Below the pieces are notes generated by a model. It was not told the origin of the DNA. It worked only from the letters and a program-made list of their open reading frames with translations, and searched no databases. DNA of 64,000 nucleotides from Bacteroidota bacterium (lineage in GTDB: Bacteria > Bacteroidota > Bacteroidia > B-17B0 > Aurantibacillaceae): positions 1-64,000 of the forward strand of contig JACCXH010000026.1 in the NCBI GenBank assembly GCA_013697245.1. Reading direction: 5' to 3'. The position numbers and the translations under genes were made by a program. Positions within the stretch are counted from its first letter, which is position 1. Every line of letters begins with the position of its first letter. Shown here one piece after another: positions 6,565 through 20,461 of this stretch.

Positions 6565-7257
6565 TTAGTTAAGTACTTTAGTATCGATGATAATGCCGGC
6601 GCTCATAGTGCTGCTTAAAGTAACTGATTTTACATAAGTTCCTTTTGCAGAAGAAGGCTTTAATTTTACGATAGTTTGCAATAGCTCATTCGCGTTATCA
6701 GCAATTTTATCAGCGCTAAAAGACGCTTTTCCAATTCCTGCATGAATAATTCCTGCTTTGTCTACTTTAAAATCGATCTTTCCACCTTTTGAGTCTGTTA
6801 CCGCTTTGCCGATATCCATGGTTACAGTTCCGGTTTTAGGGTTTGGCATTAAACCACGAGGGCCTAATACACGTCCTAAAGCACCAACTTTACCCATTAC
6901 TGAAGGCATAGTAATAATTACATCTACATCCGTCCATCCACCTTTGATTTTCTCGATGTATTCATCTAATCCTACGAAATCCGCGCCTGCAGCTTTAGCT
7001 TCTGCTTCCTTATCAGGAGTTACAATAGCTAAAACGCGCAATACTTTACCAGTACCGTGAGGTAAGGTAACAGTGCCACGAACCATTTGATTAGCTTTAC
7101 GAGGATCAACTCCTAAACGGATCGCAAGATCCACCGATGCATCAAATTTAGTGGTCGTGATGTCTTTCACGATCTTTGATGCTTCGGCCACTGAATAAGA
7201 CTTGCTAGCGTCGAAATTCGCCGTAGCCGCTTTTCTTTTTTTAGTCAATGTTGCCAT
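6565..7257 (-). CDS. rplA: Ribosomal protein uL1
   Basis: This is the L1 stalk protein of the 50S subunit, 230 residues, full length. Family hallmarks are visible: [20 protein letters not shown] near residues 47-66, and [18 protein letters not shown] in the middle domain. It follows rplK by 39 bases. In several bacteria L1 represses translation of the rplK-rplA mRNA by binding a leader that mimics its 23S site. The 134-base leader ahead of rplK here could hold such a site, but I could not identify the motif with certainty. Confidence 0.98.
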
Positions 7258-8831: not shown

Positions 8832-10019
8832 TTAGTCTAAAATTTCAGTTACCTGACCAGCACCAACGGTACGTCCACCTTCACGTATAGCGAAACGTAA
8901 ACCTTTATCCATTGCAATTGGGTTGATCAAATTAACAGTAATTGTAACGTTATCTCCCGGTAAAACCATTTCACGTCCAGCTTCTAACTCGATCTCTCCA
9001 GTTACGTCGGTTGTACGGAAATAGAATTGAGGACGGTATTTATTTTGGAATGGAGTATGACGTCCACCTTCTTCTTTTTTCAAAATGTAAACCTCAGCTT
9101 TGAATTTAGCATGTGGTTTTACAGTACCCGGTTTAATGATAACCATACCACGTTTGATGTCTTTTTTCTCAACACCACGTAATAATAAACCTACGTTATC
9201 TCCAGCTTCACCGTAATCTAAAATTTTACGGAACATCTCAACACCTGTTACGGTTGATACTAATTTCTCAGCACCCATACCGATGATCTCAACCGGATCC
9301 GCAGAGTTAATTACACCTGTTTCGATACGACCTGTAGCAACAGTACCACGACCAGTGATCGTGAAAACGTCTTCAACCGGCATCAAGAACGGCTTATCTT
9401 TTTCGCGTGGAGGAATTGGAATGAAAGTATCTACTGCATCCATTAATTCCATAATTTTATCAACCCATTTTGGATCGTTATTTAATCCGCCTAATGCAGA
9501 ACCACGAATAATCGGAGTTGCATCACCATCAAATTTATAGAAAGTTAATAATTCACGGATCTCCATTTCAACTAAGTCTAATAACTCAGCATCTTCAACC
9601 ATGTCAACCTTGTTCATGAAAACAACCAATTTAGGCACACCAACCTGGCGGGCTAAAAGGATATGCTCACGGGTTTGTGGCATTGGACCATCTGTTGAAG
9701 CAACCACTAAAATTGCACCATCCATTTGAGCAGCACCCGTAACCATGTTCTTTACATAATCGGCGTGACCCGGACAATCAACGTGAGCATAATGACGGTT
9801 AGCTGTCGCATACTCAACGTGAGAAGTGTTAATAGTAATACCACGTTCTTTTTCTTCAGGAGCGTTATCAATTGAAGAGAAATCACGGATTTCGCATAAG
9901 CCTTTAGAAGCTAATACTGTAGTAATTGCAGCAGTCAAAGTAGTTTTACCGTGATCTACGTGACCAATTGTTCCAATGTTTACGTGTGGTTTGGAACGGT
10001 CGAATTTTTCTTTTGCCAT
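8832..10019 (-). CDS. tuf: Elongation factor Tu
   Basis: EF-Tu is the GTPase that brings aminoacyl-tRNA to the ribosome. It has 395 residues, full length. The GTP-binding motifs are all present: GHVDHGKT (about residues 19-26), [21 protein letters not shown] and GSAL. Domains 2 and 3 follow and end in the family signature [21 protein letters not shown]. It sits downstream of four tRNA genes, the same arrangement as thrU-tyrU-glyT-thrT-tufB of Escherichia coli, and is presumably co-transcribed with them. It is the only tuf in the window; a second copy elsewhere cannot be excluded. Confidence 0.98.
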
Positions 10020-10075: not shown

Positions 10076-10129
10076 TTGAGCTGTTGAGCAGTCCCGATAG
10101 CTATCGGGAGAACTGCCGACCTCCTCCTT
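10076..10129 (-). pseudogene. tRNA-Thr 3'-half remnant interrupted by an 18-bp palindrome
   Basis: Positions 10076-10091 and 10110-10129 repeat, base for base, 10161-10176 and 10181-10200 of the intact tRNA-Thr(GGT) region: the 3' anticodon-stem strand, T-stem and acceptor strand. The four T-loop bases GATT of the intact copy (10177-10180, plus-strand reading) are replaced by the perfect palindrome TCCCGATAGCTATCGGGA (10092-10109). There is no 5' half, so it cannot be a functional tRNA. Confidence 0.88.
10092..10109. repeat. 18-bp perfect palindrome (CCGATAGCTATCGG family)
   Basis: TCCCGATAGCTATCGGGA equals its own reverse complement. Related copies are at 20395-20412 (near-perfect), 17529-17546 (degenerate) and 35622-35639 (degenerate). 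It is read as a dispersed extragenic palindrome; here it sits in the T loop of a broken tRNA copy. Confidence 0.85.
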
Positions 10130-10163
10130 TTCCTCTTTCTCAAAGAGGCTCAACATCTTGTTG

Positions 10164-10235
10164 AGCTGTTGAGCAGGATTGAACTGCCGACCTCCTCCTT
10201 ACCAAGGAGGTGCTCTACCACTGAGCTACAACAGC
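10164..10235 (-). tRNA. tRNA-Thr (GGT anticodon)
   Basis: A full cloverleaf reads on the minus strand: acceptor GCTGTTG paired with CAACAGC, anticodon arm CCTCC-TTGGTAA-GGAGG (anticodon GGT), T arm GGCAG-TTCAATC-CTGCT. It is the last tRNA before tuf. Its 3' half is duplicated downstream at 10076-10129. The short segment between the two copies forms two small hairpins (10132-10148 and 10149-10165). Confidence 0.96.
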
Positions 10236-20370: not shown

Positions 20371-20461
20371 TAAATCAATCTGTGTAATTCGAGATCCCGA
20401 TAGCTATCGGCACTGTGGCTTTGAAGTCCTTCTCCATTGGAGAAGGATTTAGGATGAGGCC
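20371..20461 (-). repeat. Right copy of the ~90-bp composite inverted repeat
   Basis: Read on the minus strand it gives GGCCTCATCCTAAATCC, the stem-loop TCCTTCTCC-AAT-GGAGAAGGA, CAAAGCCACAGTG, the palindrome core CCGATAGCTATCGG (20397-20410) and ACACAGATTGATTTA. This is the same block order as 17479-17571. It begins three bases after the stop of the PP2C regulator gene. Confidence 0.85.

Follow-up and report, generated by a model that had tools for sequence, protein, structure and literature searches.

The window, i.e., the whole stretch of 64,000 nucleotides that was analysed, carries on its minus strand, in this order, tRNA-Thr(TGT), tRNA-Tyr, tRNA-Gly, tRNA-Thr(GGT) and then tuf, tRNA-Thr(GGT) being the last gene of a Thr-Tyr-Gly-Thr cluster upstream of tuf. 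The features considered are the following:

8832..10019, minus strand: tuf (EF-Tu, 395 aa), downstream of the remnant (translation; tblastn to syntenic loci)
10076..10129, minus strand: partial second copy of the tRNA-Thr 3' half, split by a palindrome, in two blocks that match exactly (36 nt)
10092..10109, no strand: 18-bp palindrome TCCCGATAGCTATCGGGA, replacing the T-loop bases AATC (57-60), with a 14-bp core and two covarying outer pairs
10130..10160, minus strand: spacer that may be what is left of the 5' part of the copy, with pairing of AGATGTTGAGC to GCTCAACAGCTC
10163..10235, minus strand: intact tRNA-Thr(GGT) (ARAGORN; Rfam RF00005, 70 bits)
20395..20412, no strand: second copy of the palindrome in the window, intergenic, with the 14-bp core intact and one outer pair mismatched

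In forward-strand order the second copy reads ttgagctgttgagcag (10076-10091), TCCCGATAGCTATCGGGA (10092-10109) and gaactgccgacctcctcctt (10110-10129), and the intact gene reads ttgagctgttgagcag (10161-10176), GATT (10177-10180) and gaactgccgacctcctcctt (10181-10200). The exact block matches bear out the 36-nt duplicate of the tRNA-Thr(GGT) 3' half, 85 nt downstream of the gene, that was reported in the preliminary description. The exchange of the four T-loop bases for TCCCGATAGCTATCGGGA (4 nt for 18 nt), also reported there, is read directly from the sequence. By BLAST the two matched blocks give E = 6e-7 and 1e-3, thus the resemblance to tRNA-Thr is far beyond chance. The partial copy lies beside the intact gene, as is the case for tRNA pseudogenes formed by local duplication. 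Upstream of the copy in the RNA sense stands AGATGTTGAGC, which is similar to the 5' end of the tRNA (AGCTGTTGTAGC) and is able to base-pair with GCTCAACAGCTC; the second copy may therefore be a decayed full-length tRNA-Thr copy, i.e., more than a 3' half.

The spacer between tRNA-Thr and tuf was compared among the 30 genomes of the genus with the leader read. The palindrome-bearing remnant is found in this genome (G000) and in G021 and G001, and in the leaders of G031, G007, G008 and G036 the remnant is altered or other hairpins are found. Many leaders of the genus, close relatives included, are without remnant and tRNA-Thr stands directly before tuf. In five contigs of other lineages (L191, L196, L202, L207 and L233) the spacer before tuf likewise contains a Thr remnant with the palindrome, and in one of them the remnant is present as seven tandem 65-bp copies. 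As most members of the genus have no remnant, a repeated origin of the Thr/tuf remnant is likelier than its ancient conservation.

The palindrome is dispersed, as had been proposed from the window alone: the 14-mer core occurs 13 times in the 4.44-Mb genome, against 0 for the reversed control. The window itself holds 2 copies vs. 0.02 expected by chance (search allowing 2 mismatches). Its presence varies between species, since it is found in 27 of 60 relatives with 0-35 copies each; copy number is thus moderate. Over 97 sites, copies near tRNAs among them, the bases at the two outer positions can pair in 88 and 84, vs. the 59 and 54 that re-pairing would give. Complementarity is at chance level for the four positions that follow; among the remaining offsets tested, offset 7 alone is raised (40 vs. 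24). Pairing falling to chance beyond the two outer pairs, the unit is an 18-bp palindrome with covarying outer pairs, and these vary together (TC/GA, AT/AT, CC/GG and others). Other centres between CCCGA and TCGGG are few in this genome and mostly unrelated. In the printed flanks of the 97 copies, no common motif such as an unpaired GTAG/CGTC foot was seen by eye. It must be noted that one copy (L005, G000 C37, about 6678-6975) lies within a dispersed repeat of ~100-135 bp, with many copies in G019, G021, G006 and G026.

Closing stems are commoner in the flanks of the palindrome than in flanks paired anew (mean score 10.4 vs. 8.5, reached by 0 of 500 permutations). A strong closing stem (score >=14) is observed in 17 of 89 copies, vs. 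8% expected. The enrichment in hairpin loops that the preliminary description had suggested is thus present as an excess of closing stems; it is moderate, and most copies have no strong stem: entry into loops is thus a tendency rather than a rule.

Loop replacement is more plainly seen at empty sites in relatives, 12 sites having been tested for empty orthologues besides the tRNA spacers. In G021, the palindrome takes the place of the loop ATTTGTTTG of a terminator, AAACCGTTTC-ATTTGTTTG-AAACGGTTT. The loop of another terminator contains it in G000 and also, between differing flanks, in G026. A variable loop of a cobalamin riboswitch is occupied by the palindrome in G000 and by variants of it in G021 and in G019, and is free of it in G006 and G026. 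The spacer beside tRNA-Gly (Gly/Thr) forms the hairpin CGCCT-CTCGTCTTT-AGGCG in G019 and G006 without palindrome; the same hairpin contains the palindrome in G021 and, in G031, a variant that differs by one base. The tuf leader gives empty sites in relatives as well. Loop position can alternatively reflect selection against other positions.

The link with partial tRNA copies is strong. Of 75 copies in five related genomes, 17 have an intact tRNA gene at a distance of at most 250 bp, vs. 0.42 expected, all or most sites being read and the tRNA number of three genomes being taken as 50. In this genome, remnants stand beside four genes (Thr, Val, Arg and Cys) and all carry the palindrome; no palindrome-free remnant was found beside the tRNA genes examined (30 of 33 tRNA matches). 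In G031 (30 of 52 tRNA matches plus the palindrome loci read), the palindrome is likewise present in the remnants at Leu(UAA), Val, Asn, Ala(GGC), Leu(GAG) and Cys; the exceptions are a Met remnant, preceded by a hairpin of another kind, and a fragment of Ala(TGC) that has none. The same genome has a tight tRNA array with degenerate tRNAs and a palindrome in one T arm (C1 5363263-5368147).

At least 59 copies of the palindrome, from 51 loci and 19 tRNA types, could be aligned with the intact tRNA closest to them. Some of these were obtained by a scan for GTTC followed by the palindrome, which favours T loops. Common descent may account for several remnants, and the 59 cases do not all stand for separate events. 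Among the matches listed, 3-7 nt are replaced per case (mode 4), mostly in the loop. The entry points are the D loop after position 13, the T loop mostly after TTC, the variable loop in Asn and the anticodon loop in Met; in two tRNA-Cys cases stem bases are replaced. Still among the matches listed, 5'-arm cases lie upstream of the gene in 17 of 17 and T-loop cases downstream in 33 of 36. Among 395 genomes sampled evenly from the class, 10 have the palindrome with GTTC before it, vs. 1 with the shuffled flank CTTG. The early proposal of a «hairpin into hairpin loop» event is thus supported by the flank statistics, the empty sites in relatives and the 59 tRNA cases.

Palindromes of other sequence are found in tRNA remnants of G015, G013 and G034, thus the pattern is not tied to one sequence. 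Several tandem decayed 5' tRNA-Thr copies with CCTGTC...GACAGG palindromes in the D arm were observed in G015 (L127). Pseudo-tRNA-Asn copies with palindromes in the variable loop and in the T loop, whose centres differ between species, were observed on L179, L183, L245, L268 and L269.

Taken as a whole, these data are probably best explained by a REP-like mobile palindrome that replaces the bases of hairpin loops and persists in redundant partial tandem copies of tRNA genes; TCCCGATAGCTATCGGGA would be a small mobile palindrome of Bacteroidota with a fixed 14-bp core and two variable but paired outer bp. The palindrome would enter a hairpin and a few loop nucleotides would be swapped for its own hairpin, here in the T loop of a partial tandem tRNA-Thr duplicate that lies between tuf and the intact gene. 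As tRNA genes are essential, such an event would be tolerated in a spare copy only; the cases observed would therefore be remnants beside an intact gene, several of which would have been amplified in tandem later. Movement may proceed via an extruded or single-stranded hairpin, the palindrome being copied by a cellular or transposon-like activity, and the loop could be recognised in DNA or in RNA. No mobilising gene was identified, Y1/RAYT genes being at best loosely linked to copy number. A stricter form, in which a self-copying palindrome swaps loops under the direction of structure and makes the partial tRNA duplicate in the same step, with neither target sequence nor dedicated transposase, is rather doubtful.

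A second 3' half downstream of a tRNA gene is the usual form of integration scars, and the preliminary description had suggested that the duplicate may mark a lost island; it would then be the attR left by an element once integrated at the tRNA-Thr 3' end. This origin is now very improbable. In relatives the spacer has no remnant or a short one, and in close ones the tRNA leads directly to tuf. Comparable remnants flank many tRNAs on the 5' as well as on the 3' side, some in 65-bp tandem arrays, and a replaced loop is neither explained nor predicted by a tyrosine integrase. The lost island was rejected, the tRNA-Thr/tuf spacers of 29 relatives being without any element. A tRNA-like hairpin kept 5' of tuf as a functional RNA leader (EF-Tu autoregulation, transcript processing) is improbable too. 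The remnant region has a predicted RNA fold of -27.9 kcal/mol (z -1.9, with 7 of 200 shuffles as stable) and the five contigs of other lineages have the remnant before tuf; however, the remnant is missing from most members of the genus, unrelated hairpins occupy this place in others, and like events are found at tRNAs that are not tied to tuf (Val, Arg, Cys, Asn, Leu and others). A palindrome-free remnant conserved across distant genera, which the preliminary description held to be the sign of such a leader, was not seen: the five contigs have the palindrome in place, and within the genus most relatives have no remnant.

The two remaining explanations concern the way in which the palindrome is copied. 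In the first, the palindrome would be an ordinary REP that a Y1/RAYT transposase moves in trans, with hairpins in single-stranded DNA as its substrate. This would agree with the known action of IS200-type enzymes, whose substrate is single-stranded and whose recognition sites are subterminal hairpins (PMC6006769). Genes of the Y1_Tnp family are frequent in the genus, and their number shows a weak correlation with that of the palindrome copies (rho 0.39, p 0.017); nevertheless, copy number tracks genome size more strongly (0.56), the palindrome shows no GTAG foot, and the one RAYT locus read in this genome (L095 521-1060, G000 C45) is flanked by different, CCGAAGCAGAGCTTCGG-type hairpins. This mobilisation is therefore judged unlikely, and RAYT as a necessary driver was rejected on the complete genome G031, which has 35 copies and no Y1_Tnp match. 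A single replication event is tentatively kept as a possible alternative: a polymerase stalled at the first tRNA hairpin would gain the palindrome by template switching and, jumping back, would re-copy the gene. The side preference (5'-arm insertions upstream only and T-loop insertions mostly downstream, among the matches listed) looks as if the first arm met, from whichever side, were hit, palindrome-free remnants are missing from the tRNA matches examined in this genome, and the Leu(UAA) copy of G031 (L057) duplicates the leader plus the 5' part. The same position rule is however expected of partial duplicates that keep only their outer end, and the terminators show loop replacement without any duplication.

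Among known systems, the nearest kind is that of the REP elements (GTAG and CGTC families) with their RAYT transposases, i.e., short, dispersed and mostly intergenic palindromes (PMC3733652, PMC6006769), some families of which are reported inside larger palindromes (PMC3733652). The palindrome described here is also short, dispersed and mostly intergenic, at a moderate copy number. It differs from REP, usually of 20-40 bp with a distinct loop, in being 18 bp long, perfect and loopless, without visible foot, in a copy number that is at most loosely tied to RAYT genes and in its recurrence in tRNA loops. The mobile GC clusters of yeast mitochondria, tiny palindromic non-coding DNAs whose copying mechanism is unknown (PMC4478555), are a looser parallel: these are mitochondrial, 42 nt long and flanked by short direct repeats, whereas the palindrome of this study replaces loop bases and shows no direct repeats. 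The Rickettsia palindromic elements (RPE), cited in PMC3733652, are bacterial palindromic repeats that enter functional sequences, reportedly within reading frames; they share this character with the palindrome and are set apart by their location in reading frames. The scars of phages and islands at tRNA 3' ends share the second 3' half downstream of an intact tRNA and differ by the points given above. No description of the palindrome or of its link with tRNA copies was found among the open-licence papers searched, and the pattern of a palindrome in a tRNA remnant is recurrent and apparently undescribed.

If hairpin loops are the target, many base-precise pairs of sites before and after the event are already contained in public genomes, and the multiplication of tiny non-coding palindromes would become directly testable. 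This reading would also explain a class of tRNA remnants otherwise taken for island scars, and it would show a route by which terminators and riboswitch loops gain extra stems.
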